The position numbers and the translations under genes were made by a program. A DNA stretch of 41,885 nt, from contig MAAL01000003.1 of the NCBI GenBank assembly GCA_002163245.1, positions 1 through 41,885 on the forward strand, given 5' to 3'. How positions within the stretch are numbered: the stretch's first letter is position 1; every line of letters starts with the position of its first letter. This document shows, piece by piece, positions 2,403-37,421 of this stretch. The notes under the pieces are model-generated. The model was not told the origin of the DNA and ran no database searches. It worked only from the letters and a program-made list of their open reading frames with translations. Source of the stretch: Gammaproteobacteria bacterium 42_54_T18 (lineage in GTDB: Bacteria; Pseudomonadota; Gammaproteobacteria; Pseudomonadales; Ketobacteraceae).

Positions 2403-2457
2403 CGTCCAGATATGCTTGGCACCCTTCATCGGCGTTACCATTAACGCAAGTATAATT
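2389..2457 (-). pseudogene. relic of a nucleoside hydrolase 3' end
   Basis: Read on the minus strand this stretch gives NADEGCQAYLDVIVA followed by TAA. The intact nucleoside hydrolase at 6189-7211 ends NAEEVYQAYLDVIAL followed by TAA, so the last 15 residues and the stop position align. By eye about 37 of the first 48 bases from the stop codon match the copy at 6189 onward. Nothing of the rest of the hydrolase follows; the DUF4136 gene begins instead. The relic overlaps the last codons of pelG on the opposite strand. It may be the scar of a lost tandem paralogue or one end of an ancient insertion. Confidence 0.5.
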
Positions 2458-2543
2458 AATATACATAATAAGGAACAAAACTCGAAAATCCTTTTCAAAA
2501 GATAAATATGCCCATTCCAATTTTCTTAGATTTGGAGAGAGCC

Positions 2544-3089: not shown

Positions 3090-3256
3090 CACATAGTCAG
3101 CGTTTTGTTATTGTTTTATAGCATAATGTTATTCGCAATTTGCTACGAACGATATTAAACTGGATGCTAAAATAAAGCATGCTTAGCTATCAAGCGGTTG
3201 CATCTAATTCAGTTGGTTGAGTCCGGTTCCAAATGAGTTCTTAATTCTCGCGAAGA

Positions 3257-5227
3257 TTGGGTAGATATGTGGATATAATATCAAACGGAGATCAGGAAAT
3301 AGAGAATCGCCGATCGATTTCGTGGCGCAATTATGAGGTGGGAGAAGACCTTCTCGACGCGCTAGGTATAATAAGTGCTGAGCTTAATATTATACAACTA
3401 AGTCGACGAGGGTGGGCTTTGGTTGGGCGAGATCACTTGCAAGACAAACCTATCACTTTTTGTGAGGTAATCCACCCGAAGGATAGAAACGAAACAAAAG
3501 CGGCACTTGAGCATTGCATGTCTAGCAATAGTACGCTAGATACTGAGGTCAGATTAAATCCAGTGGATGATCATCAATGCTGGGCCCATCTACGCGCAGT
3601 ACCCATGCAAGAACGTCAGTTGATATTTGTGACTATTTACAATATTAGCTCGTACAAATCAGAAATAAATCAGCTAAGTCGTTTTTTCTCAATGTCCCCT
3701 GATTTATTTTGCGTGATGGATTTTGACTGTGAGTTTATTCGTATCAATAGCGCTTGGGAACAGTTGTTAGGCTGGCCCTTGAAAACGTTAATGGAGAAAG
3801 GGTTATCCTCCTTCATCCATCCCTCGGACAAGAAAAGAACTGAAGCACAGTTTGCGAACAACATCGAGGGGGCGGATACTGTTCTTTTTGAAAATCGCTA
3901 TAGAACCATTGATGGCACTTACAAATGTATCCAATGGAAATCTGTTTCTCTAGCAGAAGAAAAAATTATCTTTGCAAATGCTCGTGATATTACTGCTAAG
4001 AAGGATTTTGAAAATAAATTGCGCGACATGGAGGCTGCGCGAATTGCTGATCGTACAAAATCTACTTTCCTTTCTGCGATGAGCCACGAATTACGAACTC
4101 CGCTAAACGGAATAATGGGACTCGCCAGTATTGCGTACGATGAAGCAGAGACCGCTTCACAGAAGGATATATTAAAAACACTCAAGACAACTGCGGATTC
4201 GCTCGCAAAATTAGTTGATGATGTATTGGATTTTTCTAGAATAGACGCGGGTTTAATTGAATTAGATGCCCAGCCGTTTTCAATTCGGGCGTTAATAACG
4301 GAAATTGAAAGGCTTAACTCCTTTAGTGCAAAAGAGAAAGATATATTTCTAAATCTTCATGTAGGAGAAAATGTCCCTGATATTTTGAACAACGACTTAA
4401 ACAGACTGGGTCAAGTGTTAAGAAATTTAGTCGATAATGCAATTAGATTCACAGATGAGGGTAGCGTAACAGTATCGATAACCCCGGTTGATGTTTCTTA
4501 TAAGGAAAAAGGAATCGCAAAGCTAACAAACTCTACAGAGAATGCTCAATGTTGGTTACGTTTTATTGTAAAGGATACTGGGCTAGGAATTTCAGTAGAA
4601 GAAGAAAGTAGAATATTTGATGCATTTCATCAGGCACATGAGTTTATAAACAGAAAAACTGGCGGTATGGGTATTGGTCTCGCGGTATCAAAGCAACTGG
4701 TAGAATTAATGGGGGGCTCAATTAAACTAGTTACAACCCTGGGCGAGGGAAGTACATTCACGTTTGATATTCCTTTTAAAATTCCAACACAGGTATCTGC
4801 TCATGAACCTGAAGATATTTCCAAAGAGCAGCCTTTACATTCACTCCATATACTTGTTGTTGAGGATAATATCGTCAATCAAAAAGTGGTTATTCGTTTT
4901 CTTACAAATCAAGGGCATACTGTGATTGTCGCTGACAATGGCCACTTGGCAATTGAGGCGTTTGAGAGAGAAGTCTTTGACTTGATTCTAATGGATTTGC
5001 AAATGCCTGAAATGGATGGCATTACAGCAACTCGATGCATTCGGAATATCGAGATAGAAGGGAGAAGAAAAACCCCTATCGTGGCTATGACCGCTCATGC
5101 AGCCAAGAGTGATGAGTATGCATGTTATGACGCAGGGATGGATGATTTTATCGTTAAACCTTTTAAGCCTAAAACACTAACAAGTGTTCTTTCTCGATTT
5201 TCCGCGTCAGTTAACGATTCACGGTAG
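3257..5227 (+). CDS. PAS-containing hybrid sensor histidine kinase / response regulator
   Basis: A 656-residue cytosolic hybrid kinase without a convincing membrane segment. Order: a weak PAS-like region (about 25-130), a clear PAS domain (about 140-250, with ARDITAKKD closing it), HisKA with MSHELRTPLNG (phospho-acceptor His277), HATPase with LVDNAIRF, DTGLGIS and GGMGIGLAVSKQLVELMGG, then a receiver with VVEDN and MDLQMPEMDG (phospho-acceptor Asp580) and the conserved Lys in IVKPFKP. This is a multistep phosphorelay kinase that would need a separate Hpt partner, which is not in the window. The start is uncertain: TTG at 3257 with a weak GAAGA upstream, or GTG at 3269. It sits alone between intergenic regions of about 170 and 230 nt. 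Confidence 0.88.
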   Translation: MGRYVDIISNGDQEIENRRSISWRNYEVGEDLLDALGIISAELNIIQLSRRGWALVGRDHLQDKPITFCEVIHPKDRNETKAALEHCMSSNSTLDTEVRLNPVDDHQCWAHLRAVPMQERQLIFVTIYNISSYKSEINQLSRFFSMSPDLFCVMDFDCEFIRINSAWEQLLGWPLKTLMEKGLSSFIHPSDKKRTEAQFANNIEGADTVLFENRYRTIDGTYKCIQWKSVSLAEEKIIFANARDITAKKDFENKLRDMEAARIADRTKSTFLSAMSHELRTPLNGIMGLASIAYDEAETASQKDILKTLKTTADSLAKLVDDVLDFSRIDAGLIELDAQPFSIRALITEIERLNSFSAKEKDIFLNLHVGENVPDILNNDLNRLGQVLRNLVDNAIRFTDEGSVTVSITPVDVSYKEKGIAKLTNSTENAQCWLRFIVKDTGLGISVEEESRIFDAFHQAHEFINRKTGGMGIGLAVSKQLVELMGGSIKLVTTLGEGSTFTFDIPFKIPTQVSAHEPEDISKEQPLHSLHILVVEDNIVNQKVVIRFLTNQGHTVIVADNGHLAIEAFEREVFDLILMDLQMPEMDGITATRCIRNIEIEGRRKTPIVAMTAHAAKSDEYACYDAGMDDFIVKPFKPKTLTSVLSRFSASVNDSR

Positions 5228-5459
5228 TATTGTCGTTGCCTCGCACCATGCTGAGATCACCGTCAAATAAATACTCCGTATCCCAGAAGTAATCGTCAGA
5301 TACGCCTCTATTGTGACTGAATTGTAACGAAATCAAAGGTACGTACACATAACTTTTACCATTGTTAACACTCAATCTACGGACAGAAAGAAGAGACGAA
5401 GTTATAGTTTGGTCACTGAAATGCAGGGCCTAACGTAATAATAATAGGGAAGCAGCACA

Positions 5460-8062: not shown

Positions 8063-9238
8063 TTAAAACTGATATTGACTGGCTGCAAGATCTCGCATTA
8101 TCTCTTCTGACCCCCCTCCAATAGCATTGACGCGAACTTCGCGATAAATACGCTCCACCTTACTCCCGCGTAAATAACTGGCACCCCCCAAAATCTGGCT
8201 TGCTTCTCGGGCGCAAAACTCCATTGTTTCGCTAGCCTGAACCTTAAGCATGGCTAGGTCGCCAGGGTGAATTCTATCTTCAATGTACGCTTGAGTGAGG
8301 TGTAAGAGGTAGGTTTGCGTTGCGTTAATACGTTGCTTCATCGTTGCTATTTTATGGCGAATTACTTGATGATCCGCAAGTCGTTCTCCAAAGGTTTCGC
8401 GATCTCGAGCCCAATTGACGGCCTCTTCTAGGCAGCATCGGGAAGAGGCCTCCATGGAGACCACCATTGCTAAACGCTCGCTATTAAAGTTATTCATGAT
8501 GACGCGAAAACCCTTACCTTCTTTACCAATTAGAAACTTTGCAGGTACTTTGACGTTATCAAAATATAGGGTCGCAGTGTCAGAACACAACCATCCCTGT
8601 TTTTTTGTTAATGGTGTGCGAGATACACCGTCAAGATCCATCGGGATAAGCAGCATCGACACTCCCGCTGCACCTTCACCACCGGTTCTTACGGCGGTAC
8701 TTACCCAATTGGCACCCATGCCGCCTGAGATAAACGTCTTACTACCATTCACAATGTAGTAATCACCTTCTTTTTTGGCAGTTGTTTTGATATTGGCGAC
8801 ATCGGAACCGCCAGAGGGTTCGGTGATGCCAAGCGAAATACGCTTTTCTCCTGAAAGAACCGCTGGTATTACCTGTTCCCTAATATCATCGCTACTAAAA
8901 TTAACGACTGGCGGTAAGCCTATGCCATGAATTAACAAAGTACTCGCTATTCCGCCAGCAGAACCGATACGACCTAATTCTTCGCCGGTAATATTAACGT
9001 AGTGTTGGTCAATCCCGTCAGATATGCCGCCGTAAGCTTCGGGATACCCAATTTGTAGTAAGCCGATTTCTGCTGCCTTAGGCCATAGTTCATCGGGTAT
9101 TTTTGCGTTTTCGTCCCACTCTTCTAAAAACGGGGCGACTTCTCGATCAAGGAATTTTCGAAGCTGGGTTCGCCAACTCTCATGGTCTGGTGTGAGGTGA
9201 GGGTTGTATAATCGTGCGCTATCGAAATCCAAAGACAT
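8063..9238 (-). CDS. acyl-CoA dehydrogenase
   Basis: A 391-residue FAD-dependent acyl-CoA dehydrogenase of the usual length, oxidising an acyl-CoA to the 2-enoyl-CoA with electrons passed to ETF. Domains run in order: N-terminal helical (YPEAYGG), middle beta barrel (LGITEPSGGSD, INGSKTFISGG-type sequence here VNGSKTFISGG) and C-terminal helical (NSERLAMV, ETFGERLADHQ, QILGGASYLRGS). It ends in GGGSEEIMRDLAAS. The position that holds Glu in MCAD-like YEGT motifs is Gly here, so the base may be the alternative Glu used by isovaleryl- and long-chain-type enzymes. This helps exclude a simple medium-chain call. It lies 142 nt downstream of the AraC gene on the same strand. Confidence 0.9.
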   Translation of the reverse strand: MSLDFDSARLYNPHLTPDHESWRTQLRKFLDREVAPFLEEWDENAKIPDELWPKAAEIGLLQIGYPEAYGGISDGIDQHYVNITGEELGRIGSAGGIASTLLIHGIGLPPVVNFSSDDIREQVIPAVLSGEKRISLGITEPSGGSDVANIKTTAKKEGDYYIVNGSKTFISGGMGANWVSTAVRTGGEGAAGVSMLLIPMDLDGVSRTPLTKKQGWLCSDTATLYFDNVKVPAKFLIGKEGKGFRVIMNNFNSERLAMVVSMEASSRCCLEEAVNWARDRETFGERLADHQVIRHKIATMKQRINATQTYLLHLTQAYIEDRIHPGDLAMLKVQASETMEFCAREASQILGGASYLRGSKVERIYREVRVNAIGGGSEEIMRDLAASQYQF

Positions 9239-12826: not shown

Positions 12827-14833
12827 CTAACCAATATCTAGCATGTTGTTCTTAGCGTATTCGACAAAAAATGTTAATGCCTCTGGATTCGCCATAGCAT
12901 CTCGATTCGCTGCTTTGTCTTCATCGACCCCTGATAGGATTTTTCGAACAGGTACCTCCATTTTTTTATTGGTGAGAGTGTAGGGGATTGCTGCTACCTG
13001 AATGATTTGATCAGGAACATGACGAGGTGAATATTCGTGACGCAATACCTGACAGATTTTATGTTTTAATGTCTGATCCAGCATGCGATGATTGTTCAGG
13101 GTGACGAACAACGGCATAAAAAACTCTCCTCTGTCTAAATTAACATTTACAATGATTGAGTCATCGATCTCTTCAATTTGTTCAACACTACGATAAATCT
13201 CCGCAGTACCAATTCTGACTCCATAACGATTTAGCGTAGAGTCGGAACGACCTTGTATGTAGCAACCACCTCTGTTGTTTATTTGAAAGTAATCACCATG
13301 GCACCAAAGGCCGGGGAACTTGTCAAAGTAGGATGAAATATAGCGAGAGTTATCGTTGTCATTCCAAAAATAGATAGGCATGGATGGCATTGGTTGGCAT
13401 ACTACTAACTCACCAACTTCGTTAATAATACTGAGACCATTGTCATCTAAGGCTTTAACATCAACAGCTAAACAGCGAGCTTGAATTTCACCAGCATACA
13501 CTGGCAGAGTCGGTGATGCCCCCACAAAAGCCGAAGCAACATCGGTGCCGCCACTTTGCGAGGTTACCCATAGTTCTTTGTTTATATTCTTATAACACCA
13601 AGCCATTGCTGCTGGTGTTGCAGGGGAACCGCCGAGTAAAACCCCTTCAATGCTGGATAAGTCATAATGTTTTGCTGGCTTGATATCTTGCTTTTCCATC
13701 ATTGAAATATAGGTAGGGCTTGCACCAAAAAAAGTTGTGCCACTTTCCGCAGCAAGTTTCCATAATATCTCGCCGTTTTCTGCCGCTGGACTGCCATCAT
13801 AAAGAACAGCTGAGCCACCGTTAATTAATGCGCCAGCGACGATGTTCCACATAATCCAGCCTGTTGTGGTATAAAAAAACATGGTCGATTCTGGACCTTG
13901 GTTCATATGAAAGCCAAGTAATTTAAGAAACTCTACAATAATACCGCCGTGACTATGGACAATCGGCTTTGGCAAACCCGTGGTGCCAGATGAATACACT
14001 ATCCATAATGGATGATTAAATGCCAAATGTTCAAAGTGAAAGCTGTCGGCAGAAACCGGTGGAATATCCATTACCGCATCCCAGCGTAATGCATTGGCTA
14101 CAATCAACGTATCTTCTGCAGCGTTATGATTAAATAAATAAGACAACTGGATAACATTTTCTACGCTAGGTAACGCTTCTACGATTGCACGTGCTTCCGC
14201 TCTGCGATCAAAATCTTTATCACCAAATCGATAACCATCACAGCAAAATAAGACCTTTGGGTTCGTTTGACGGAAGCGGTCGATGACACTCTTGACGCCA
14301 AAGTCCGGCGAGCAACTGGAGAATACTGCACCAATACTAGCAGATGCAAAAAATGCAATGACAGCCTCGGGGACGTTGGGTAAATAAGCGGCGACTCTAT
14401 CTCCCGGCTTGATACCCATGGCACGCAATTGCGTAGCCATTACACGCACTTGTGCCGATAATGTTTGCCAGGATATTTGCCTTGGCGGATCAATTTCAGA
14501 ATACGCATAAAGTGCAATTTTATCTGCACGTTCGTGACGAAGTATATGCTCGGTGAAATTAACTTCGCTGCCGGTAAACCACTGGGCGGTAGGCATCGTA
14601 GTGTAATCTAAGACTTTTTGGTATGGTTTGTGGGAAATCACCTCATAGTATTCCCATAAGGCTGCCCAAAAATGATCTATATGATCCACTGACCATTGCC
14701 ATAGCTGATCGTAATCACGCATGACTAGACCCTTTTCGGCGGCCAACCATTGCATAAATTTTCCTACATTTGATGATCGCTTAAATGCTTCACTGGGTGT
14801 CCACAGTAGGTCCCCCTCTTTAACAAGCGTCAT
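12827..14833 (-). CDS. acetoacetyl-CoA synthetase-like 3-oxoacid--CoA ligase (benzoylacetate--CoA ligase type)
   Basis: A 668-residue AMP-forming acyl-CoA ligase of the acetoacetyl-CoA synthetase family. It has the ACS N-terminal segment (QLWQWSVDHIDHFW), the phosphate-binding loop YSSGTTGLPKPIVHSHGG, the A5 region TTGWIMWN, GRSDSTLNRYGVRIGTAEIY and the C-terminal catalytic Lys region TNKKMEVPVRKIL. It is the last gene of the apc-like operon and its start overlaps the apcE-like gene by 14 nt. In Aromatoleum aromaticum the gene after apcABCDE encodes benzoylacetate--CoA ligase of this same family, so activation of the 3-oxoacid made by the carboxylase is the expected role here. By sequence alone acetoacetate would be an equally good substrate. 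Confidence 0.9.
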   Translation of the reverse strand: MTLVKEGDLLWTPSEAFKRSSNVGKFMQWLAAEKGLVMRDYDQLWQWSVDHIDHFWAALWEYYEVISHKPYQKVLDYTTMPTAQWFTGSEVNFTEHILRHERADKIALYAYSEIDPPRQISWQTLSAQVRVMATQLRAMGIKPGDRVAAYLPNVPEAVIAFFASASIGAVFSSCSPDFGVKSVIDRFRQTNPKVLFCCDGYRFGDKDFDRRAEARAIVEALPSVENVIQLSYLFNHNAAEDTLIVANALRWDAVMDIPPVSADSFHFEHLAFNHPLWIVYSSGTTGLPKPIVHSHGGIIVEFLKLLGFHMNQGPESTMFFYTTTGWIMWNIVAGALINGGSAVLYDGSPAAENGEILWKLAAESGTTFFGASPTYISMMEKQDIKPAKHYDLSSIEGVLLGGSPATPAAMAWCYKNINKELWVTSQSGGTDVASAFVGASPTLPVYAGEIQARCLAVDVKALDDNGLSIINEVGELVVCQPMPSMPIYFWNDNDNSRYISSYFDKFPGLWCHGDYFQINNRGGCYIQGRSDSTLNRYGVRIGTAEIYRSVEQIEEIDDSIIVNVNLDRGEFFMPLFVTLNNHRMLDQTLKHKICQVLRHEYSPRHVPDQIIQVAAIPYTLTNKKMEVPVRKILSGVDEDKAANRDAMANPEALTFFVEYAKNNMLDIG

Positions 14834-15743
14834 TGTGTATTGCCTCTTGCACTGTTCTTAATTGTGTTAATTTTTCTGATACTGTTTCTGGAATCGCATT
14901 TACAGGAACGCAAACGTAAAAACAGGCATTGCCTTGTTCCACTGACGATGGGCATTGAGACCAATCTTGAGCGGACAGTTTTAGTGCTGTGAGAGCGTTA
15001 ATTGATAGTTCAGATAGTCGACCTTCTCGCAAGCTAAAGCTTATACCGGTGTCAGAATTGGGTGCATAGTTTTGTGGGCAGCCGTCAAGGATACTTTGCC
15101 AGTGGTAGTGCTTTGCAATATTTAATATCGGTTGATAACGAGATACCTCAGCATCGGAGGCTGGTCCTTGATCGATCTTGTCGCGTATTAACAAACCACT
15201 TATTGCACATTCAGAAAAACTTCGCAAAAAATCAGCGACATACATTGATGCTGATTCTGCGTCATCCCAACTAATATCGACGGTACTCACACCTTTAGCT
15301 GCGCAATAAGCACTGGCTATCCATTGTTTGGGGGAGGGGATAGCTAGCACCACTGGTTTATCTCGATAACTTTCACACAGCGCGTCAATAATATCTTTTA
15401 GTTGTTCGCGAGCACCTTGTTCAGCAAGCATGGTTCGCAGGGCATATCCTAGTCGTCGTTTATCGCCCATAGCGCCCAATAATGTTGGGTGTGTGTGTAG
15501 CCATGCCGTATAAAAATCTCCTACCTCAAGGGTTACTACGTCTGAATTAACCAAACTTTGTAGCTGCTTAATATGCGAAATAATTGCCGCGATATCATGC
15601 CAAGGTAGAGGCTGAGCCTCGTTTAAGTCGCCTTTGTTTAATAGTCGATTACCGTAATCCCAAGCATCAACCCAAACTGCATGTTGTATAGGGTGTTCCT
15701 CAGAAGTTATAGTGTTTAGGTAGTGTGTTATATCAATAGCCAT
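14820..15743 (-). CDS. apcE: acetophenone carboxylase epsilon-subunit-like protein
   Basis: 307 residues (about 34 kDa) with no signal peptide or membrane segment and no domain I can name. The sequence is soluble, rich in alternating helix/strand, with VVLAIPSPKQWIASAYCAAKG and VDISWDDAESASMYVADFL as its most structured blocks, reminiscent of a TIM-barrel half. Its identity comes from position: it lies between the hydantoinase-B-like subunit (16-nt gap) and the CoA ligase (14-nt overlap), exactly where the 34-kDa ApcE lies in the apcABCDE-ligase operon of A. aromaticum. ApcE is the separate epsilon subunit that binds the core Apc complex and is needed for activity. Acetone carboxylase operons have no such gene. 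Confidence 0.65.
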   Translation of the reverse strand: MAIDITHYLNTITSEEHPIQHAVWVDAWDYGNRLLNKGDLNEAQPLPWHDIAAIISHIKQLQSLVNSDVVTLEVGDFYTAWLHTHPTLLGAMGDKRRLGYALRTMLAEQGAREQLKDIIDALCESYRDKPVVLAIPSPKQWIASAYCAAKGVSTVDISWDDAESASMYVADFLRSFSECAISGLLIRDKIDQGPASDAEVSRYQPILNIAKHYHWQSILDGCPQNYAPNSDTGISFSLREGRLSELSINALTALKLSAQDWSQCPSSVEQGNACFYVCVPVNAIPETVSEKLTQLRTVQEAIHNDAC

Positions 15744-15759
15744 GGTTTCGGTCCGATGG

Positions 15760-18027
15760 TTAACAACCTTGCGTTTTTTTCAATGTGTTGATTTCCGCTT
15801 GTAGTTCGGCAATAAGACGATCTTTGGGATTGCTGAACATAACACCGCTTGATCCGGCAGGTATTCGGTAGCGCTTTTCCCCTGGTGGTGAAACAACCAA
15901 GGTGCTGTGATCATTTCCCCAGCTACCCATATAGGGTAAATCTTCAGAAGGCTCGGGTTTGACCCAGGAGGCAACAAATTCATCGTAAGGAATGCCGCGT
16001 TTGATGCGCGCCATACGTTCTTCATCGCGCGCCTGTTGAGTGGCGTCTTCATCAATGACAAAATTATCGGGATTAAATATCACTTTATATATTTCTTGCG
16101 CTAAATTTGGACTGATCAGCTCTTCTTCAAGATCTTTAGCTACCATGCTAGGGTCTCGATCTAATACATCGCCATACCCGCCGCCAGCACCTTGACAAAT
16201 CATATAAATCTCACCTTCATTACAAAGCTCAAAATTCATCCCAGCGTCTTGTACATAATAATCTCCGCCGGTAATTTTACGTTCGTTCATTAAGGTGATC
16301 ATGTCGAAATCAAACTGCTCGGGATTATTTTTAAACGTCTCAAAAATATTGATATTTTTTATTCTTGCCATGGGGTAGGTGGGGCACGCATATCCGCCAA
16401 ATAAGCCATAAGCACTGGGATGTTTGCTACCACATTGGCCGGTCATAAAACCAAATTCGGTGCTGTTCTTTACCGTTGCGATTTGCTCATAACCCATACC
16501 ACCACGATATTTACCGAATCCAACACGGTCTTTTGCTAATTTTTGAGCGACTAATCGTACGTACGGAAGCTCTTCTTCTGCTAGCTCCATTTCACCCGTA
16601 TCAGCCATATACCCAAATACTGGTGATAAGGAATGTTCCCCGTCTTTATCTTCACGCCCGCCAGTGCCGTTACCATTAATATCGGCACAAAAATTTCCGG
16701 TGACTTCACCATGCTGTGTTAATCCTCCGTACACTAATGTTGCTGGTTGGCTGTAGGTATTGGCATTAATCGCGGTATACCGTTTAGGCATGCAATAATT
16801 CAGTTTCCCCATTGTCATTGGAGGCATGGAAAAACTGCGAAATATCGGCAATAAACTCATCGCATTCGGTGCTTCATTTGAGCAATTGACGAGACTATTT
16901 TCATCCATTTCTACTTCCACTGCACTAAACACTGCTTGATTCTTCGGTAGGTCGGGCCAAACGTATAAAATCAATGAGGTGAGTAAGCAGGTTTTCATTG
17001 ACCCCATGACCACATTGATCGATCGGTTGGTAAATTCTGGAGAGGTTCCCTTGAGATTCCAGATCATACGAGAGCCTTCAATCCGTATTTCCATAGGCAT
17101 CTTTGCTAAGACATCTTCACGTAAGTTTCCATCGATAAAAGTATTCACCCGTGATATGCCGTTGGGTATTTCTTCTATACGACGACGCACTTCGGTTTCA
17201 GTATCTTCTAAAGATTTACGCAAGGTACCTTGAAGATAATCAATGCCAAATTCCTCGATGACTGACAGTACGCGCTCACGTAAACGTATAATGGAATGTA
17301 GTTTCACTTTCATATCAGCTAATTGCAGTTTCGGGTCACGCACCGAATTTTGCAGGAATGTTACGATATCACGACGTAGCTGAAAGTTTTCCACAATTTT
17401 GAAGGGGCACATTTTCAACCCTTCATCGTATTTTGTTTCTGCAATGGAAGGCATGCCTCCAGGTTCAATGGCTCCGTTTTCTCCCTCATGAATAGTGGAG
17501 GAAACCCAGCAGACCAAATTACCTTGCCAAAAAACCGGCATCATCAAACTTTGGTCGGTATTATGTATATTGCCGTAGGCAGAATCATTGTGAATAAACG
17601 CATCGCCATCGCGCACACCAACGGTGGGTTCGTTTACCCAGTATTTTCGGATAAATTTCACTGGATACTGACATACCGATGCAAACACTACAATTCCGTG
17701 GGTGCCGGTTTGCGCCATGTCCCCGTTAGCGGTGAAAATTGCAGTCACTAAGTCCCCCCACTTAGCTCCAGGTGCAACCCCCATTTGCTCAACCATCGTA
17801 TGGGTTTCATCTAACGCCGCAGTGAGTCGACCTCGAACCATATTCACTTTTTGTGCATCCAGCCCCGCGGATAAAATGCGTTCTTCCGTATCGGAACGTG
17901 GATCAAGGCCATGGTTTCGCATAATCTCAGGGTCTGGTCCATAAAACAGTTGATTATCAACAAGAAATTGATCGATAAGAGCCTGCTCTTCTTTAGACAA
18001 ATCGGCTTTTGTAATGTTGTTTGTCAT
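15760..18027 (-). CDS. apcD: acetophenone/acetone carboxylase beta-type subunit (hydantoinase B family)
   Basis: 755 residues of the HyuB / acetone-carboxylase-alpha family. Visible family blocks: DETHTMVEQMGVAPGAKWGD (about 75-95), HGIVVFA, RDGDAFIHNDSAYGNIHNTD (metal-site region, about 140-160), GTGGREDKDGEHSLSP and GGMGYEQI. In ketone carboxylases this subunit hosts the site where the phosphorylated ketone enol and carboxy-phosphate are joined. The C-terminus ends in a short predicted coiled coil (AELQAEINTLKK). The start overlaps the preceding apcC-like gene by 4 nt (ATGA). A plain hydantoinase B would be shorter (about 500-600 residues); this length fits carboxylases. Confidence 0.8.
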   Translation of the reverse strand: MTNNITKADLSKEEQALIDQFLVDNQLFYGPDPEIMRNHGLDPRSDTEERILSAGLDAQKVNMVRGRLTAALDETHTMVEQMGVAPGAKWGDLVTAIFTANGDMAQTGTHGIVVFASVCQYPVKFIRKYWVNEPTVGVRDGDAFIHNDSAYGNIHNTDQSLMMPVFWQGNLVCWVSSTIHEGENGAIEPGGMPSIAETKYDEGLKMCPFKIVENFQLRRDIVTFLQNSVRDPKLQLADMKVKLHSIIRLRERVLSVIEEFGIDYLQGTLRKSLEDTETEVRRRIEEIPNGISRVNTFIDGNLREDVLAKMPMEIRIEGSRMIWNLKGTSPEFTNRSINVVMGSMKTCLLTSLILYVWPDLPKNQAVFSAVEVEMDENSLVNCSNEAPNAMSLLPIFRSFSMPPMTMGKLNYCMPKRYTAINANTYSQPATLVYGGLTQHGEVTGNFCADINGNGTGGREDKDGEHSLSPVFGYMADTGEMELAEEELPYVRLVAQKLAKDRVGFGKYRGGMGYEQIATVKNSTEFGFMTGQCGSKHPSAYGLFGGYACPTYPMARIKNINIFETFKNNPEQFDFDMITLMNERKITGGDYYVQDAGMNFELCNEGEIYMICQGAGGGYGDVLDRDPSMVAKDLEEELISPNLAQEIYKVIFNPDNFVIDEDATQQARDEERMARIKRGIPYDEFVASWVKPEPSEDLPYMGSWGNDHSTLVVSPPGEKRYRIPAGSSGVMFSNPKDRLIAELQAEINTLKKTQGC

Positions 18028-20162
18028 GCTGCACCTTTACGTTTAAAAAACCACACCGCGCCTTTGTGAGATGCATGGTAGGACCAATTAGGCTCAACTA
18101 AATATGTTGTATCTTTCGTTGTAACCACTGCTGGCCCGTTGATAAAACTTCCAGCCTTCGTCGCCGAATCATCATAAACGCGAGTCATTACCGGTTTGTC
18201 GTAACCCACAAAGTGGCAAAGTCGTTGACTGACTGGTTCGACAGAACGTTTTTCCGTAACGGGTTTAATGTGCTTAAAATCCACCTTATCAAGCTCAACA
18301 TAGGAACTCACCCGAATGGTATTAATACGTACACCAGATTCTGGCGCCTGACTGCCTTCACCGAAACGTTCACCATAACGGGTATGAAACCGTTGAATCA
18401 GATTCAATATGTTATGTACACTTTCGAACCGTGTAGTCTCGCTAGACACCGCAGTTTCAACGCGTTGGTTTCCATAGCGCATATCAAATTCGAGTCGAAA
18501 TTGAATGTCATTTGAATTCATCCCCTGACGTAATAAATCTTCTCGACCTCTTTTTTCAAGATCTTCGATAGCTCCGTTTAAACGGTGGTAATCCGACATT
18601 ATGGTGTTAGCTGTTGTATCAAAAAGCACGCTATAAGTTGATTGCTCGTGAATATGCATTTGATTTACATTGCCTGCACCGAGGGCTGAAAACATCGGGC
18701 TGAAGGGGGGGGCGAGTACGCGATTTACACCAAGCGAGTTGGCAATACCACAACAGTGTAATGGTCCATTTCCGCCATAAGCCAGCAAGGTAAATTCACT
18801 AGTGTCATAACCCCTAGAACCGAGCTCGGTTGAAATACCGTTGCCCATATTGGTATCTGCGGTTTGTTTGATGTGTTTGCAAATATCCAGTACATCAAGA
18901 TCCAAGTCGTCACACAGGGTCTCTTCTATGGCAAAACGGGAACGAGCTGCATTCAATTTAATACGACCATTGGCGTAATTTTCAGGGTCTAAATAACCCA
19001 AGAGCAAATCAGCATCTGTTACGGTAGGCAACATGCCACCACGATCATAACAAGCGGGACCTGGGTCAGACCCTGCACTCTCAGGGCCAATTTTAATGGT
19101 GTTATAGAGTTGATCAAAGGATGCAATTGAACCGCCACCGGCACCAAGTGTAACCAAATGCACCATGGGAATACTGACTAACCAACGATCGATGACGGGA
19201 TTAAAGTCATAATGTTTTTCGCCGCCTTCGACCACGATACCAATATCAAAGCTGGTGCCGCCCATGTCAGTAGCGACAATGTTGCCGAGATCACCGTTTT
19301 TTGCAAGATGTTCGGCTGCCGCGATACCCGCGACTGGACCTGAGTGAACAGTTTGTAATGCATCCGTAGAATTAAGCTGCGCCATACCACCGGAGTTATG
19401 GCTGATAAGCATGGGTTTTTCATAGCCGTTGGCACGTAAATTAAGCGCCAATGTACCTAAGCCGTGGTACATCACTTGATGTAAAAAACTATCGATAATT
19501 GTAGAAATAGCCCGACTATATTCGCCCTTGCGACCAGCAACCTGGTGCGATAATAATAAGGGGATAGCACCTAGTAGGTAGCTAGGGTACTCTTCTAAGA
19601 ATACATCTCTTACGCGTAATTCATGTGCTGCATTCACCACACTGTTGGTGAACATTACCACAATGGTTTCTGCACCTTGATCGACTAGCTGACGTAATTT
19701 TTCGCGTAAGTCATTTTCGTCCAAAGGTAAAAGCACTTCACCATTATAACTCAACCGTTCGCGTACCCCGCGTATCATTTGAATTGGCACTAGAGGGTCA
19801 GGGCGGACAGCGTTGGGTAAGTCTCGTTGTTTTTCGAAAGGTAAGCCTTCGCCATATCCGCGGCCTCGTGATAACGGTACGGTACTATTAAAACCCTCAG
19901 TTACAAGTAGGCCGATTCGAGGCCCTTTACGTTCGATGAGAGCATTGGTGCCAAGCGTTGTTGCGTAACGAACCGAGTCGATACCGGCCAAAATCGAACG
20001 TTTTTCGATACCGATACCTTGCACGGCAATATCAAGTGCATCATTAAACCCCTGCGCTAAATTGTGATGGGTTGTTAGGGCTTTCGCTCCGATATAATGT
20101 CCATCCCACGCCACGAAACAATCTGTAAAAGTGCCTCCTATATCTACCGAAATTCGTCTCAT
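18024..20162 (-). CDS. apcC: acetophenone/acetone carboxylase alpha'-type subunit (hydantoinase A family, ATP-binding)
   Basis: 712 residues of the HyuA / acetone-carboxylase-beta family, an ASKHA-fold ATPase subunit. The first phosphate loop is VDIGGTFTDCF near the N-terminus, followed by RYATTLGTNALIERKGPRIG; the second is ATDMGGTSFDIG; GPACYDRGG and LLAYGGNGPLHC mark the rest of the ASKHA core. In these complexes the subunit phosphorylates bicarbonate or the ketone enol at the expense of ATP. It lies 41 nt after the apcB-like gene and overlaps the apcD-like gene by 4 nt. Closest families by length are AcxA and ApcC; the presence of a second HyuA-type subunit in the same operon favours ApcC. 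Confidence 0.8.
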   Translation of the reverse strand: MRRISVDIGGTFTDCFVAWDGHYIGAKALTTHHNLAQGFNDALDIAVQGIGIEKRSILAGIDSVRYATTLGTNALIERKGPRIGLLVTEGFNSTVPLSRGRGYGEGLPFEKQRDLPNAVRPDPLVPIQMIRGVRERLSYNGEVLLPLDENDLREKLRQLVDQGAETIVVMFTNSVVNAAHELRVRDVFLEEYPSYLLGAIPLLLSHQVAGRKGEYSRAISTIIDSFLHQVMYHGLGTLALNLRANGYEKPMLISHNSGGMAQLNSTDALQTVHSGPVAGIAAAEHLAKNGDLGNIVATDMGGTSFDIGIVVEGGEKHYDFNPVIDRWLVSIPMVHLVTLGAGGGSIASFDQLYNTIKIGPESAGSDPGPACYDRGGMLPTVTDADLLLGYLDPENYANGRIKLNAARSRFAIEETLCDDLDLDVLDICKHIKQTADTNMGNGISTELGSRGYDTSEFTLLAYGGNGPLHCCGIANSLGVNRVLAPPFSPMFSALGAGNVNQMHIHEQSTYSVLFDTTANTIMSDYHRLNGAIEDLEKRGREDLLRQGMNSNDIQFRLEFDMRYGNQRVETAVSSETTRFESVHNILNLIQRFHTRYGERFGEGSQAPESGVRINTIRVSSYVELDKVDFKHIKPVTEKRSVEPVSQRLCHFVGYDKPVMTRVYDDSATKAGSFINGPAVVTTKDTTYLVEPNWSYHASHKGAVWFFKRKGAA

Positions 20163-20203
20163 TGTTGTCTGTCCTCTTAGGCGCCCTTAATGATGTGAAT
20201 CTA

Positions 20204-20614
20204 TTAGTGATTATGAACATGGCGTTCCAGTGGAATGTCTGGGATCTCCGGTTGTTCTGGTATCTCACCCCAGGATTCGACTTTGCGTCTTAGGTCATCA
20301 ATATCCAGCTCAATGTCATGAACAGGAGGGTGCCCTGGTACCGTGTACTCAGTTTCAACCATGGTGCCACACTGAGGGCAATAAAATTCTAATAAAGCGG
20401 TATACGCGGGGTCCGGTGAAAATGTATAACTGTACAAATTCGTGTCTACTAACGGTTTGTGGATTTCTCTCGGGTCTCGATCATAAACCAACAGGCCACG
20501 CTTATAGTTTTCACGGGCTGAACCTAGCGCCTTGTCACAACAACGGCACTCCCACTGCTCAGTATCTAGATTAATGCGTAGATATTCTGTGATATTTGCT
20601 TTTAGTGTTTTCAT
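20204..20614 (-). CDS. apcB: acetophenone carboxylase gamma-like small zinc subunit
   Basis: 136 residues (about 15 kDa). Two Cys pairs form a probable structural zinc site: CRCC (Cys23/Cys26) and CPQC (Cys79/Cys82). Acetone carboxylase gamma and ApcB carry comparable Cys pairs. The surrounding residues (RDPREIHKPL, YCPQCGTMVETEYTVPGHPP) match the family pattern. The C-terminus is His-rich (RHVHNH). The start overlaps the stop of the apcA-like gene as ATGA, implying coupled translation, and the next subunit gene follows after 41 nt. The size and second position in the operon match the 15-kDa ApcB. Confidence 0.75.
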   Translation of the reverse strand: MKTLKANITEYLRINLDTEQWECRCCDKALGSARENYKRGLLVYDRDPREIHKPLVDTNLYSYTFSPDPAYTALLEFYCPQCGTMVETEYTVPGHPPVHDIELDIDDLRRKVESWGEIPEQPEIPDIPLERHVHNH

Positions 20615-22557
20615 TCACCGCCTGCCTTTAATTTTTCTAATAATAAATCGTTATTTCCTGTCACGGTTACCTGCCATGATTCATCGATAAAACCAGTGAA
20701 AAAGGCTTCTTCAATAATCGCGGGCCCCACTGCGGAGGCACCGGCAGATTGTTCCTCAAGCCGATATACTGGCACGTTACGATAATCACCTTCTGCAACC
20801 AATAAGCCACGCTGTTCACTCACAATGGCGGTGTGTACAGATTCATTCCCGACGTCAGATAATTGAACGTTTTGTATTGATTTCGTTGTTTTGTATAGGA
20901 GCGTTGCCACATCGTCTTCCCGCAGCTCACAAGGTAAAGACTCTGATTGAGTTATCGTAAATCGTTCTTCTGTATTATCCCGGAGCCGTAATAAATATGT
21001 TTCGATGGTGCATTCTTTAATGTTGATTCCCTCAGCAAACACGTCTCGAGAAGCACGTAATCCGGACGTATCGATGATGCCATTTAACGTATCAATATCA
21101 TGATCGACAAGAGTCGTGCGATATTCTTGAGACAGCGGTGAAAAGCCAATGCCGAATGCACTGAATATTGCACCCAAGCCTGGAATAATAATGCGGTCTG
21201 CACCAAGGGCATCCGCCACTCGTGTTGCTGCCAGAGCACCAGCACCACCAAAGCCTGCAAGGGTGGTGTCTGGCGTGATCGTCGTAAAGTGACGAATGTT
21301 GGAAGCGATTTTTTGTACCCAGGCGTCTCGCATTTTCTCTAGCGCATCAAAGGTAGATAACGCTAAGGGGGTTGCAATAGTTGTTGTGATAACATCAAGG
21401 GCACGTTCGGCGTCTAGAGTTAACTTACCACCAAAATACCGTGCTGGATCGAAAACGCCCAGCAATAAAAAGACATCGGTTATGGTGGCATCTTTTCCCC
21501 CATAACCGAAGCAGGCTGGGCCTGGTGCGGCACCAACTGATTGTGGGCCAATACAAATTCCGTGTTCATCGGTAGTAATAATAGAGCTGCCACCAACCCC
21601 CGCGCTGTAAATATTCGGCATAGGAAAACTGATATCAATTCCTTCGATAATACCGCGTCGCCTTTCATTAATGGCACCGTCAGTAATTACACCAATGTCG
21701 GTCGTAGTGCCGCCGACATCGTAGGATATAAGGTGGTTAAAACCGTAATGAATTGCCAATGCTTTAGCCCCTTGCATACCACCGCAAGGGCCTGAACTGT
21801 AGGTTTTCACCGCCATTGTTTTAGCCACACGAGCAGAGCCACCGTCGTTTCGGAAGATAAGCAACGGATTTTTTGTTTTGTAGTCTTTTAGACGATGGTC
21901 TGCACTATACAAAAAACGTTCCATTGGCGGGTGTAAGAAAGCATTCAGTAGGGCAGTCCAAGTGCGACGTTCATAAACAGGGTCGTCGGCTAATTCGCTG
22001 GCTGAAATAACAGGCACAACCCCCAAAAGATGGGACGGAAATTTACGACCGATAGTTTGGCAAATATTTGTTTCAAGTGCTTTAGCGTCGACTTTATTAA
22101 GGGACAATACAATGCGGTTTGCGCCTGTTGAGGTAATATGGTTTACCGCCTGTACGATATTCATTTCGGCGGCTTCACCACGTAACGTTAAGTCGATTTC
22201 TGCAACCCGCGTGTCGAGCAAATCTTGAAATAACGTCGATTCATTCTCTTTTGCGCATAGCTTGTTGACGTCGCTACCACACTGGACAATCAAGCCCAGG
22301 CGCGGGCCTTTACGTTCGACGAGGGCGTTTGTACCTTGTGTTGTGGAATAACGAATGTAATCGGTAGACTGAATTAACTTATCAATGTCGGCTTCGTCGC
22401 CGTAGATTTCTTTAGCTAGCTTTTTCAAGCCCTCAAAAAAGCATTTGCTTAGATCAAAAGGTGTAGTCAGGGTTTTGGTATGGTAAATCTTGCCGTTATC
22501 AAGTGCGCAAAAATCCGTCAATGTACCGCCATTATCGATATTAACTAGCTTGCCCAT
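20611..22557 (-). CDS. apcA: acetophenone carboxylase alpha-type subunit (second hydantoinase A-family ATPase)
   Basis: 648 residues (about 70 kDa), the first gene of the operon. ASKHA-fold loops: VNIDNGGTLTDFCA at the N-terminus (Asn replaces the usual hydrophobic residue before GGT) and ISYDVGGTTTDIGV in the middle; RYSTTQGTNALVERKGPRLG parallels the same block of the apcC-like subunit, and GPACFGYGG and LAGFGGAGALAA follow in family order. Having two divergent HyuA-type subunits in one operon is the hallmark of acetophenone carboxylase, where they form the alpha/alpha' pair that spends two ATP per carboxylation. The start at 22557 is preceded by a weak GGGG. Promoter and operators lie about 80-120 nt upstream. 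Confidence 0.78.
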   Translation of the reverse strand: MGKLVNIDNGGTLTDFCALDNGKIYHTKTLTTPFDLSKCFFEGLKKLAKEIYGDEADIDKLIQSTDYIRYSTTQGTNALVERKGPRLGLIVQCGSDVNKLCAKENESTLFQDLLDTRVAEIDLTLRGEAAEMNIVQAVNHITSTGANRIVLSLNKVDAKALETNICQTIGRKFPSHLLGVVPVISASELADDPVYERRTWTALLNAFLHPPMERFLYSADHRLKDYKTKNPLLIFRNDGGSARVAKTMAVKTYSSGPCGGMQGAKALAIHYGFNHLISYDVGGTTTDIGVITDGAINERRRGIIEGIDISFPMPNIYSAGVGGSSIITTDEHGICIGPQSVGAAPGPACFGYGGKDATITDVFLLLGVFDPARYFGGKLTLDAERALDVITTTIATPLALSTFDALEKMRDAWVQKIASNIRHFTTITPDTTLAGFGGAGALAATRVADALGADRIIIPGLGAIFSAFGIGFSPLSQEYRTTLVDHDIDTLNGIIDTSGLRASRDVFAEGINIKECTIETYLLRLRDNTEERFTITQSESLPCELREDDVATLLYKTTKSIQNVQLSDVGNESVHTAIVSEQRGLLVAEGDYRNVPVYRLEEQSAGASAVGPAIIEEAFFTGFIDESWQVTVTGNNDLLLEKLKAGGE

Positions 22558-22635
22558 CGTGGCCCCGCATATTTACCGCTAGTGATTGTCAGGATGGTGT
22601 CATTATCCCGACGGTAGTTTTATGAAAGCAAATTA

Positions 22636-22681
22636 CTTTACATGAGTAAAGAGACTATAAAATAACTTGTCAAGTGTAAAG
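22636..22681 (-). promoter_or_regulatory. sigma70 promoter and overlapping operators of the apc-like operon
   Basis: On the minus strand TTGACA (plus 22668-22673) and TTTACT (plus 22645-22650) are 17 bp apart: a perfect -35 and a 4/6 -10. The -10 lies inside a perfect inverted repeat CTTTAC-ATGA-GTAAAG (22636-22651). The -35 lies inside a second one, ACTTG-T-CAAGT (22665-22675). GTAAAGA recurs in direct orientation at 22646 and 22676, 30 bp apart. Such overlap suggests repression by a dimeric regulator (TetR- or GntR-like). No gene of those families is in the window. The predicted leader is about 80 nt. Confidence 0.6.
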
Positions 22682-22682
22682 A

Positions 22683-23039
22683 TATTTGTTTGCACAAAAA
22701 TACAGGGCAGTTGCCGGAGAGTCGAAATCGGGCTGACCATACCCTATGTGATGTGCTAAAAAGTTAATAAAAGGTGAAAAGAGTTTCGTGATAATTTGGT
22801 TTACTGTATTACGTTGTGACTTTCGATTTCCATATTTGAAAACCAATAGACCTATAAGATTTGCTTGGTGATCGGGGCTAGCAGTCCGTTTATTTTTATA
22901 GTGTGATCAGTATTTTTTCGATACTGCTTGGTCAAAACATAAATTCTTTTATCAATTAAACTTATATGTTTAAATCGGCCAAGGTTGCCGGATGGCACCC
23001 TTTCAACTACGTAATTACAACAATAAGAAAGGAATCCCT
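22683..23039. other. non-coding stretch between the divergent apc-like and lipoprotein genes
   Basis: No open frame of note. It must contain the promoter of the plus-strand lipoprotein gene, but I could not pick a clear -35/-10 pair. A small inverted repeat CAGTAT/ATACTG lies at 22908-22926. Confidence 0.4.
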
Positions 23040-26202: not shown

Positions 26203-26400
26203 GAGCCTAGGGCCTGGACGCTGTGGATACATTTTCTGCCAATATGGAATAACGTTAACATTAAACAATCTAATCAATGTCTTATAAAACCTCGTCGGAA
26301 CAAATCTAACCTTGCCTTTCATAGGTAACACAACTATTTTGCTAAATAGCCCCTTACTTTTTTCATGGCATTCAAAACGACATTTTTAATGGAGTTTGAT

Positions 26401-28851
26401 ATGGCAAACACACTAGTTGTTATTGGTAACGGTATGGCGGGTATGAGAACCGTCGAAGAGCTGCTCAAGATCGCTCCCAAAAAGTATAACATTACTGTTT
26501 TTGGCGCAGAGCCCTACGGTAACTACAATCGTATCATGCTGTCTCCTGTGCTGACCGGCGAAAAAACGATTGAACAAATTATGATTAACGATCGGCCTTG
26601 GTATGAAGAAAACAACATAATACTTCATGCTGGAGCGAACAAAGAAGTCGTTAACATAGATCGTCGAAAAAAAACCGTAACTGCAATGGACGGTACGAGC
26701 GTTAATTATGATCGCCTGCTGTTTGCCACGGGGTCCAACCCTTTCATTATTCCTTTCCCTGGACACGATTTACATGGTGTAATCGCATTTCGAGATATTG
26801 CAGATGTCGACACCATGATAGAGGTTGCAAAGACAAAAAGACACGCAATAGTGATTGGCGGTGGGTTACTCGGCCTTGAAGCGGCTAACGGTCTAATGAA
26901 ACAAGGTATGGACGTTACGGTTATCCATGATTTACAGGTGTTAATGAATCGACAATTAGACCCTCCTTCTGCAAAAATGTTAGAGGTATCTCTGGAAGAG
27001 CGCGGCTTAAGTTTTAAAATGGCAGCCAAGATAAAAGCCATCTTGGGTGATGAGAGTGGCAATGTAACCTCCATCTCTTTCGAAGAAGGAGAGGACCTTC
27101 CGGCTGATCTTATTGTTATGGCTGTGGGCGTTCGACCCAATATTGCCCTCGCCAAAAAAGTAGGCTTACAATGCAATAGAGGTATTTTTGTCAATGACAC
27201 GATGCAAACCTACGACCCCCGCATTTATGCAGTGGGAGAATGTGTGGAGCACCGCGGGGATACCTTTGGATTAGTAGCACCGTTATTTGAGCAAGCTAAA
27301 GTCTGTGCTAACCACCTTGCGGAATATGGCATTGCCAATTATCGCAGTTCAGCTGTCGCAACGAAACTAAAAGTCACCGGGGTCAACTTGTTTTCTGCAG
27401 GTGACTTTACCAGTAATGAAAATTCAGAAGACATTATCTTTCAAGATCCCAAACGCGGAGTTTACAAGAAAGTTGTGATCGAAGATGACAACATAAAAGG
27501 AGCTGTGCTGTACGGGGATACCATTGATGGCTCGTGGTATTTCCAAATGATGAAAGACGGAACCAACATATCAGAGATACGTGACCGGCTACTGTATGGT
27601 CAGGCCCACCTAGGTGATTCAGGTACGCAAGGTGCCAACGCTGTTTCAAACCTGCCTGACAATGCAGAGATATGCGGTTGTAATGGTGTTTGCAAAAGCG
27701 ACATAGTTAATGCAATTGCCTCGAAAAGCTTGTTCACGTTGGATGACGTTCGTGACGCAACGAAGGCATCTGCTTCTTGCGGCTCATGCACGGGGCTGGT
27801 AGAACAACTTATTGCTGATGCCCTGGGTAGCGACTTCAATGAAACGGAAACACGTAAATCTATTTGTCGCTGTACGGATTACAGTCATGATGAAATACGA
27901 ACGGCTATTTCTACCAATGCGTTAATGTCCTTCCAGGCAGTAAGCCAACACTTTTCCTTTTCTAGTCCAGACGGCTGTCATGTCTGTCGACCCGCGATTA
28001 ACTATTATTTGCTAGCCCATTGGCCTGGTGTATACGAAGATGATTCCCGGTCACGTTTCATTAACGAGCGTACCCATGCAAACATTCAAAAGGACAACAC
28101 CTACAGTGTAGTACCACGAATGTGGGGTGGTTTAACAACCCCTGCAGAATTACGCGCCATCGCCGATGCTGCAGAAAAATATAACGTACCCACCGTAAAA
28201 GTGACGGGAGGGCAACGTATTGATTTATTAGGTGTTAAGAAAGAAGACCTGCCTAATATTTGGAAAGACCTGAACGATGCTGGAATGGTGTCTGGTCATG
28301 CTTATGGTAAATCATTACGTACAGTTAAAACCTGCGTGGGTTCGACCCACTGTCGTTTTGGTACTCAGGATTCAATGGGAATGGGTATTGAAATCGAGAA
28401 AATGACCTGGGGTTCTTGGACTCCTGCAAAGGTTAAAATTGCTGTTTCCGGCTGCCCACGTAACTGTGCCGAAGCAACCATTAAAGATTTTGGTGTCGTC
28501 GCAGTGGATTCAGGTTGGGAACTTTATGTCGGAGGCAACGGCGGTATGAAGGTGCGAGTCAGCGACTTTTTAACCAAGGTTAGCACCGAAGCTGAGGTCA
28601 TTGAATACGCAGGGGCCTTTATGCAGATGTATCGTGAGCAAGGCCACCACAATGAGCGCTCCGCACCTTGGATTGAGCGTGTTGGGTTAAATTACATCAA
28701 AGAGGAGTTAATTGAAAACGATGAGAAACGTAAAGGATTTCATAGCCGATTCCTCGAATCACAAAAGTATGCTCAAGACGACCCGTGGGCAGAACGTGCT
28801 AGCAAAGGTGTCGATGTCATTGATTTTATACCGTTAAAAGTCATTAACTAA
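26401..28851 (+). CDS. nirB: nitrite reductase [NAD(P)H] large subunit
   Basis: 816 residues from the ATG at 26401, favoured over the ATG at 26365 because GGAG precedes it and MANTLVVIGNGMAG is the family start. Domains in order: FAD (VVIGNGMAG) and NAD(P)H (AIVIGGGLLGLEAA) binding, two BFD-type [2Fe-2S] domains (Cys425/427/460/463 and Cys489/491/526/529), then the ferredoxin-like and siroheme/4Fe-4S region with Cys645, Cys651, Cys685 and Cys689 (TCVGSTHCRFG, SGCPRNC). Reduces nitrite to ammonia with six electrons from NAD(P)H in the cytosol. nirD follows after 76 nt. No nitrate reductase, transporter or siroheme synthase gene is next to it. Confidence 0.95.
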   Translation: MANTLVVIGNGMAGMRTVEELLKIAPKKYNITVFGAEPYGNYNRIMLSPVLTGEKTIEQIMINDRPWYEENNIILHAGANKEVVNIDRRKKTVTAMDGTSVNYDRLLFATGSNPFIIPFPGHDLHGVIAFRDIADVDTMIEVAKTKRHAIVIGGGLLGLEAANGLMKQGMDVTVIHDLQVLMNRQLDPPSAKMLEVSLEERGLSFKMAAKIKAILGDESGNVTSISFEEGEDLPADLIVMAVGVRPNIALAKKVGLQCNRGIFVNDTMQTYDPRIYAVGECVEHRGDTFGLVAPLFEQAKVCANHLAEYGIANYRSSAVATKLKVTGVNLFSAGDFTSNENSEDIIFQDPKRGVYKKVVIEDDNIKGAVLYGDTIDGSWYFQMMKDGTNISEIRDRLLYGQAHLGDSGTQGANAVSNLPDNAEICGCNGVCKSDIVNAIASKSLFTLDDVRDATKASASCGSCTGLVEQLIADALGSDFNETETRKSICRCTDYSHDEIRTAISTNALMSFQAVSQHFSFSSPDGCHVCRPAINYYLLAHWPGVYEDDSRSRFINERTHANIQKDNTYSVVPRMWGGLTTPAELRAIADAAEKYNVPTVKVTGGQRIDLLGVKKEDLPNIWKDLNDAGMVSGHAYGKSLRTVKTCVGSTHCRFGTQDSMGMGIEIEKMTWGSWTPAKVKIAVSGCPRNCAEATIKDFGVVAVDSGWELYVGGNGGMKVRVSDFLTKVSTEAEVIEYAGAFMQMYREQGHHNERSAPWIERVGLNYIKEELIENDEKRKGFHSRFLESQKYAQDDPWAERASKGVDVIDFIPLKVIN

Positions 28852-35759: not shown

Positions 35760-35783
35760 GAAGTCTATATAAACATAACTCGT

Positions 35784-35816
35784 CTGAAAATGACAAGGGA
35801 ATAGTCAGAAAATAAC
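35784..35816 (+). promoter_or_regulatory. candidate AraC-type operator (direct repeat)
   Basis: CTGAAAATGAC (35784-35794) and CAGAAAATAAC (35806-35816) match at 9 of 11 positions and are spaced 22 bp apart, two helix turns. This is the form expected for an AraC-family dimer site, and it lies in the intergenic region between the AraC gene and the monooxygenase gene. Confidence 0.4.
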
Positions 35817-35891
35817 CTGAGTGATGCTTTCAATTAGGGCATATTAATCACCATCAGTAATCATTGAGATAGGAAACGGAGGGGCTTACAT

Positions 35892-37384: not shown

Positions 37385-37421
37385 AGCCTTTATCAATGAA
37401 CCTGTATTTAGGAGAGAGTAA

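Follow-up and report, generated by a model that had tools for sequence, protein, structure and literature searches.

Does an operon built like that of acetophenone carboxylase (Apc) encode an enzyme that carboxylates acetophenone? The question is raised by a run of six genes at 12827-22557 of a 41,885-nt stretch of DNA (hereafter the window; MAAL01000003.1, positions 1 to 41,885) from Gammaproteobacteria bacterium 42_54_T18. From its letters, the original prediction had recognised there six close-set minus-strand genes, an apcABCDE operon with a ligase, with acetophenone as the model substrate and a guess that the true ketone might be another. We confirm that the operon is real, and conclude that it very probably encodes an ATP-dependent, probably biotin-independent ketone carboxylase of Apc architecture, with five subunits (A to E, after their Apc counterparts), a 3-oxoacid CoA ligase of its own and a non-aromatic ketone as substrate. 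The enzyme is probably not an acetophenone carboxylase; it probably takes an aliphatic or alicyclic ketone, of which acetone is a possible one.

An Apc-type operon

All six open reading frames (ORFs) are intact and lie on the minus strand, and a check of coordinates and sizes (Table 1), together with Pfam matches, upheld the sizes and families first assigned to them, just as gene order and family matches upheld the apcABCDE-plus-ligase architecture. The genes are tightly packed: A and B overlap by 4 bases, C and D by 4 and E and the ligase by 14, while gaps of 41 and 16 bases separate B from C and D from E. A scan of genome contigs for relatives matched 561 stretches, 524 of which encode relatives, and the best 80 of these gave 79 loci; 58 of the 79 were adequately flanked (at least 3.2 kb upstream of C, at least 3 kb downstream of D, and D present), and 21 were dropped. 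The gene set is more than a chance arrangement, since A-B-C-D-E recurs in 43 of the 58 flanked loci and the six genes are the sole contiguous block that the window has in common with a congener's 94-kb contig.

Subunits A to D are nearest to Apc. Their best matches in the PDB were chains of 5l9w, the core complex of acetophenone carboxylase from Aromatoleum aromaticum EbN1: 257.7 bits for A (5l9w_b; 170.4 for 5-oxoprolinase and 126.2 for acetone carboxylase), 109.6 for B (5l9w_C; 41.7 for the gamma subunit of acetone carboxylase), 514.1 for C (5l9w_B; 278.7 for AcxB and 263.8 for 5-oxoprolinase) and 313.9 for D (5l9w_A; 156.2 for AcxA, with a further chain at 96.4). The Apc equivalogs of NCBIfam (NF042960/974/975/976) likewise ranked first for all four subunits, and the claimed closer kinship of A to D with Apc than with acetone carboxylase or hydantoinases thus holds in both rankings, as a matter of scores. 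B is of Apc-like size (136 aa; 129 aa in Apc, 168 aa in Acx), and its four cysteines align with those of the Apc gamma subunit. These proteins are Apc-like yet no orthologues by the curated standard, because all four NCBIfam cut-offs were missed by far (309 bits against 1250 for ApcA, 137.6 against 250 for ApcB, 531 against 1500 for ApcC and 346 against 1500 for ApcD). A 5-oxoprolinase- or hydantoinase-like amidohydrolase misread as a carboxylase would account for the hydantoinase-superfamily membership of A, C and D, but Apc chains outscore the hydantoinase and oxoprolinase chains for all three. The operon moreover includes a gamma subunit, two HyuA subunits and one with the predicted fold of ApcE, whereas hydantoinase clusters consist of two genes in the account of section 7 of PMC5214803; we regard this reading as barely credible.

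The fifth subunit

Subunit E had no Pfam or NCBIfam match at an E-value of 0.001. A single-sequence search of the PDB returned nothing under 0.06, and a profile of 46 E proteins gave a best E-value of at least 0.27 against PDB sequences, with no ApcE match at E-values up to 10. Aligned by hhalign with the presumed true ApcE of Panacagrimonas perspica, identified by its position, the same profile reached an E-value of 6e-4 at a probability of only 28. Kinship of this protein with ApcE had been claimed, and set beforehand as a test, and it is borne out by predicted fold, not by sequence. An AlphaFold2 model of the window E, built from 46 natural sequences (pLDDT 91.2) and compared by Foldseek with a PDB library of 350,542 chains, had as its top three matches the 9fou chains named 'Acetophenone carboxylase subunit epsilon ApcE' (E-values 5e-8 to 3e-7), followed by methionine synthase and uroporphyrinogen decarboxylase (URO-D) barrels (6e-5 to 2e-4). 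A second model, headed by the E of Aromatoleum toluclasticum from another branch of the tree (pLDDT 96.9), again placed the 9fou chains first (3e-9 to 6e-9; next match 2e-4), with template modelling (TM) scores of 0.61-0.66, a root-mean-square deviation (rmsd) of 5.1-5.3 Å and 16-17% identity. The presumed true ApcE of P. perspica itself has a weak Pfam match to URO-D (E-value 0.0034, under the cut-off), and in these models ApcE-type subunits look like URO-D-fold proteins. With A to D nearest to Apc, and the predicted fold of E nearest to ApcE, the window enzyme probably works like Apc.

Active sites and substrate pocket

Among the 79 D rows that scored above 500 bits (window included), the metal ligands of acetone carboxylase, given as His150, Asp153 and His175 in PMC5543143, are kept without exception, and Glu89 of acetone carboxylase is Asp in 79/79, as in Aromatoleum ApcD. 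Phosphate and adenosine motifs are present in A, ATP motifs in C were seen by eye, and C carries the fingerprint RERLSYNG, of which [RK]ER recurs in 84/87 clade rows. Asp274 of the proposed bicarbonate site of ApcA is kept in 64/64 A rows.

The pocket of C speaks against acetophenone. In section 5 of PMC5214803, the ketone pocket of ApcC comprises Leu81, Phe281, Asn282, Pro285, Ile333, Gln344 and Thr345; at the same positions the window C has Thr, Val, His, Pro, Ile, His and Leu, differing from Aromatoleum at five of seven. The signature is clade-specific and near-uniform: Thr81, His282, Pro285, Ile333 and Leu345 occur in 87/87 rows and His344 in 86/87, while 281 varies (Val in 68 rows, Ile in 17). 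Two further rows were left out of this count, namely a distant acetone-carboxylase-like one (locus L051) and one from Halorientalis, where these positions are Thr, Met, His, Pro, Ile, Tyr and Met.

Which ketone?

A genuine acetophenone carboxylase, diverged in sequence, would share the gene order and the five kinds of subunit of Aromatoleum apcABCDE (PMC5214803, section 7), as this operon does, but both the NCBIfam scores and the altered pocket argue against it, and two further observations make it very unlikely. The first is coexistence: in P. perspica, one ApcD passes the NCBIfam cut-off (1561.7 bits, cut-off 1500) beside four window-type copies that score 323-333 bits and are 50-57% identical to the window D, as against 32% for the true ApcD (two of the four come from short contigs cut at the start). 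The second is that neither the window genome (96.4% complete) nor the congener yielded BoxB, whereas P. perspica has it ~13 kb from its true apcD and A. toluclasticum has it too (2/2 comparison genomes). These two matches served as the working positive controls, the fixed controls having matched in one genome only and under the cut-off. BcrB (TIGR02260) gave nothing in the window genome or congener either, which is a weak test since the model reached just 59.5 bits (cut-off 486.55) in an Aromatoleum genome. PMC4729919 describes a specific response of the Aromatoleum Apc operon to acetophenone and its close analogues. Acetophenone was thus the part of the earlier interpretation that did not survive, and the guess of another ketone was its better half.

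Around the true apc genes of P. perspica (L107), a zinc-type oxidoreductase gene stands between D and E, and E is followed by a CobW-like GTPase (by eye) and a beta-keto acid cleavage enzyme (BKACE). No ORF resembling acetoacetyl-CoA synthetase (AACS) was recognised in the 19 kb around these genes.

The ligase of the window operon passes the acetoacetate-CoA ligase models TIGR01217 (782.6 bits, cut-off 520.9) and PRK03584 (909.6, cut-off 639), and is the sole AACS-like match of its genome at an E-value of 1e-100 or below. Downstream of the 58 flanked loci, an AACS-like ligase occurs in 27 and another AMP ligase in 12. A two-subunit CoA transferase adjoins the relative in Neorhizobium, a family III CoA transferase occurs at locus L017, and some relatives adjoin an acetyl-CoA acyltransferase and an alcohol dehydrogenase. 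Thiolases were counted at 14/86 loci and SDRs at 42/86, and DUF1329, DUF1302 and MMPL genes near 15, 11 and 9 loci (all counts without background control); in our reading the last three may serve the uptake of hydrophobic compounds, and all five kinds of gene are hints only. Our reading is of a common route across branches, from secondary alcohol to ketone, 3-oxo acid, 3-oxoacyl-CoA and thiolysis, with the ketone differing by branch.

A narrower case of this reading is a five-subunit acetone (or butanone) carboxylase that feeds acetoacetate to the operon ligase and does not accept larger ketones. The equivalog match of the ligase and the CoA transferase, acyltransferase and alcohol dehydrogenase beside relatives would suit it. 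So would the absence of a second D-like subunit from the window genome at an E-value of 1e-20 or below: with none beside the other strong HyuA, no separate acetone carboxylase is seen there. That further HyuA-type protein (contig C190, 86260-87114; a 702-aa frame) has no D-like or B-like partner in the surrounding 18 kb. The acetone carboxylase of Rhodococcus rhodochrous B276 reportedly has subunits of ~85, 74 and 16 kDa. Membership of the AACS family, however, does not fix the substrate, the benzoylacetate ligase of Aromatoleum being of the same family; the other AMP ligase in 12/58 relatives and BadI/MenB-like hydrolases downstream in two fit acetone poorly, and the DUF1302, DUF1329 and MMPL genes near some loci would, as we interpret them, suit hydrophobic substrates; we therefore place the acetone reading on the unlikely side. 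A propane-type monooxygenase (PF02332) was found neither in the window genome or congener nor in the control genomes.

Less likely still is a carboxylase of isoprenoid or alicyclic ketones, for instance phytol-derived or terpenoid ones. Carboxylation of such ketones is said to have been described in marine denitrifiers, without genes. In favour of this reading, the A. toluclasticum and Sterolibacteriaceae operons have downstream of them, besides an AMP ligase, a hydrolase of BadI/MenB type that scores 239 and 227 bits against BadI (cut-off 468), and such a hydrolase would fit ring opening of a carboxylated cyclic ketone. These two loci, however, sit on a different branch of the tree; both genes are missing from the window operon, for which no link to terpenoid genes was found. 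For phytol-ketone and menthone carboxylation we found no gene link in the literature, including passages of PMC7794910; PMC8461187 concerns another, aromatic ketone carboxylase.

Proposed mechanism

For the non-aromatic ketone carboxylase that we favour, we infer the chemistry, the order of steps, independence from biotin and the class of substrate from the genes and their relatives. C would enolise and phosphorylate the ketone to a phosphoenol ketone, A would phosphorylate bicarbonate to carboxyphosphate, and E, as a URO-D-like barrel, may help to bring the two activated substrates together, roles that follow the scheme in sections 5-7 of PMC5214803. Carbon-carbon bond formation, placed after the acetone carboxylase model of PMC5543143, and dephosphorylation would occur in or close to the His-Asp-His metal site of D, and B would carry zinc, probably in a non-catalytic role. 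The ligase would then activate the 3-oxo acid, and a thiolase would cleave the product into acetyl-CoA and a shortened acyl-CoA.

Several points weigh against this proposal. Two residues of the proposed bicarbonate site of ApcA are replaced, Glu248 by Ser (59/64) or Gly (5/64) and Lys281 by Asp (64/64), and the role of A may therefore differ. D, at 755 aa, is nearer in length to AcxA (776) than to Aromatoleum ApcD (684). The match between the window E model and ApcE is moderate (10-11% identity, TM 0.53-0.59, rmsd 6.3-7.4 Å), and identity between the window E and the presumed true ApcE of P. perspica is just 19%. Neither type of ligase occurs in the covered downstream DNA of 19/58 relatives.

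Distribution and modularity

The nearest relatives, at 79 loci, have C proteins 62-84% identical to that of the window, and come from Solimonas, Sinimarinibacterium, Hydrocarboniphaga, Nevskia, Panacagrimonas, Zavarzinia, Porticoccus, Denitromonas, Aromatoleum toluclasticum and many metagenome genomes; several of these are hydrocarbon degraders. Relatives also occur on plasmids of Cupriavidus necator N-1, Neorhizobium petrolearium and Rhodococcus, and among 72,556 plasmid records the eight with a match to E are the eight top-ranked for C (59-65% identity). In a quick C tree, which has the Aromatoleum protein as its root and hence does not show whether that protein falls inside or outside the clade, the window groups with genome 45_16_T64, taken to be the congener, and a Guaymas genome. 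Near relatives of the host are mostly without the system, a match to B being present in 3/57 near-relative genomes, the window genome included. The congener shares the six genes as a single block, at identities of 91% for D, 84% for C, 82% for B, 70% for the ligase, 62% for A and 48% for E, and the flanks are non-syntenic, the remaining matches being scattered members of common families at 21-31% identity. This fits a self-contained unit that has moved or been rearranged as a whole, and within which A and E change fastest.

Flanked loci other than the complete ones hold A-B-C-D (8) or B-C-D (7), such that E is present in 43/51 loci with A and in 0/7 without it. In P. perspica, one locus (L141) combines A, E and the ligase but has no B, C or D, and a B-C-D-only copy (L048) lies ~35-40 kb away. 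Each of the 17 genomes checked has, somewhere, an A with 38% identity or more, and B-C-D-only copies could therefore borrow one. That A and E form a detachable module is a lead and not a result: the fewest changes on the C tree are three for each gene, with just three independent pairs, such that significance is not attainable. More speculatively, the clade may be a separate family of carboxylases for hydrocarbon-derived non-aromatic ketones, in which an acetone-carboxylase-like B-C-D core would be self-sufficient, and A and E together would form an exchangeable module for bicarbonate activation, open to loss or to upkeep in an operon of its own; we consider this whole picture possible but doubtful.

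The genome of a groundwater gammaproteobacterium (G077, which holds locus L020) has six D subunits 43-67% identical to that of the window and four copies of A (39-51%), and L051 carries a distant HyuA/HyuB pair (974-5436; 31 and 27% identity) ~4 kb from a B-C-D-ligase set.

Genes of the operon and their surroundings

Table 1. Operon genes of the window, in order of transcription.
Gene	Product	Size (aa)	Coordinates	Strand	Family or basis
A	ApcA-type subunit (alpha-prime, HyuA-type ASKHA ATPase)	648	20611..22557	-	Hydant_A_N + Hydantoinase_A
B	ApcB-type subunit (gamma, four-Cys zinc-type protein)	136	20204..20614	-	Acetone_carb_G
C	ApcC-type subunit (alpha, HyuA-type ATPase, presumed ketone kinase)	712	18024..20162	-	Hydant_A_N + Hydantoinase_A
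D	ApcD-type subunit (beta, HyuB-type, metal-site subunit)	755	15760..18027	-	Hydantoinase_B
E	ApcE-type subunit (epsilon, predicted URO-D/MetH-like barrel)	307	14820..15743	-	predicted fold; no Pfam family
Ligase	CoA ligase, acetoacetyl-CoA synthetase family, presumed 3-oxo acid activator	668	12827..14833	-	AMP-binding + ACAS_N

Pattern scans offered no promoter or regulator clue: no sigma-54 site (up to two mismatches) lies upstream of A at 22558-22991 (29 matches overall, 21.35 expected), and sigma-70-like and terminator-like sites numbered 14 (22.6 expected) and 11 (10.0 expected). An acyl-CoA dehydrogenase gene lies near the operon at 8063-9238, and ~12 kb from it 34704-40131 holds an AraC regulator, an FMO-like monooxygenase (possibly of Baeyer-Villiger type), an alpha/beta hydrolase, an SDR and a PF10118 hydrolase, possibly a separate operon for a ketone or cyclic compound and without synteny on the congener's contig. 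Because the flanks of the window are not syntenic with the congener, neither the dehydrogenase nor the monooxygenase cluster (35892-40131) was counted as part of the operon. Elsewhere in the window, two adjoining ORFs at 1035-2402 correspond to PelG positions 1-221 and 234-452 of 452, apparently a split exopolysaccharide exporter gene, and 26365-28851 encodes a NirB-like large subunit of nitrite reductase.

Significance and comparison with known systems

In 2017, section 7 of PMC5214803 described one characterised enzyme of the Apc branch, and named just two other gene clusters with close ApcE orthologues. In the present clade, which is widespread, a subunit of predicted ApcE fold (10-17% identity in structural alignment) is regularly present, and natural variants without E, or without both A and E, allow the roles of these two subunits to be asked about; if the reading of A and E as a module is true, the roles of the alpha-prime and epsilon subunits of Apc become testable by such variants. 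Our search of the literature on acetophenone and ketone carboxylases, which left most subscription journals outside its reach, met no title or abstract opening on this clade. The operon offers a gene handle for non-aromatic ketone carboxylation, a CO2-fixing step that may serve the breakdown of hydrocarbons and perhaps of terpenoids.

Compared with ApcABCDE of A. aromaticum EbN1 (5l9w, 9fou), the window system has the same gene order, five subunits, ATP motifs in two HyuA-type subunits, a four-Cys gamma subunit, the His/Asp/His metal ligands and the predicted fold of E. It differs in its pocket (L/F/N/P/I/Q/T in Aromatoleum, T/V/H/P/I/H/L here), in the replacement of E248 and K281 of ApcA, in the length of D (755 against 684 aa), in missing the NCBIfam cut-offs and in an E that is unrecognisable by sequence. 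With AcxABC (5m45, 5svb) it shares HyuA, HyuB and gamma subunits and the metal ligands His150, Asp153 and His175, but Acx has three genes, one HyuA and no E, scores are far lower, and Glu89 is Asp in the window clade. Hydantoinase, 5-oxoprolinase and caprolactamase (HyuAB, 6yra, 7hk5, CapAB) belong to the same HyuA/HyuB superfamily, but are two-component enzymes without gamma, alpha-prime and E subunits in the account of PMC5214803 (section 7). The ligase, for its part, resembles acetoacetyl-CoA synthetase closely enough to pass TIGR01217, and differs from it in being embedded in a carboxylase operon.

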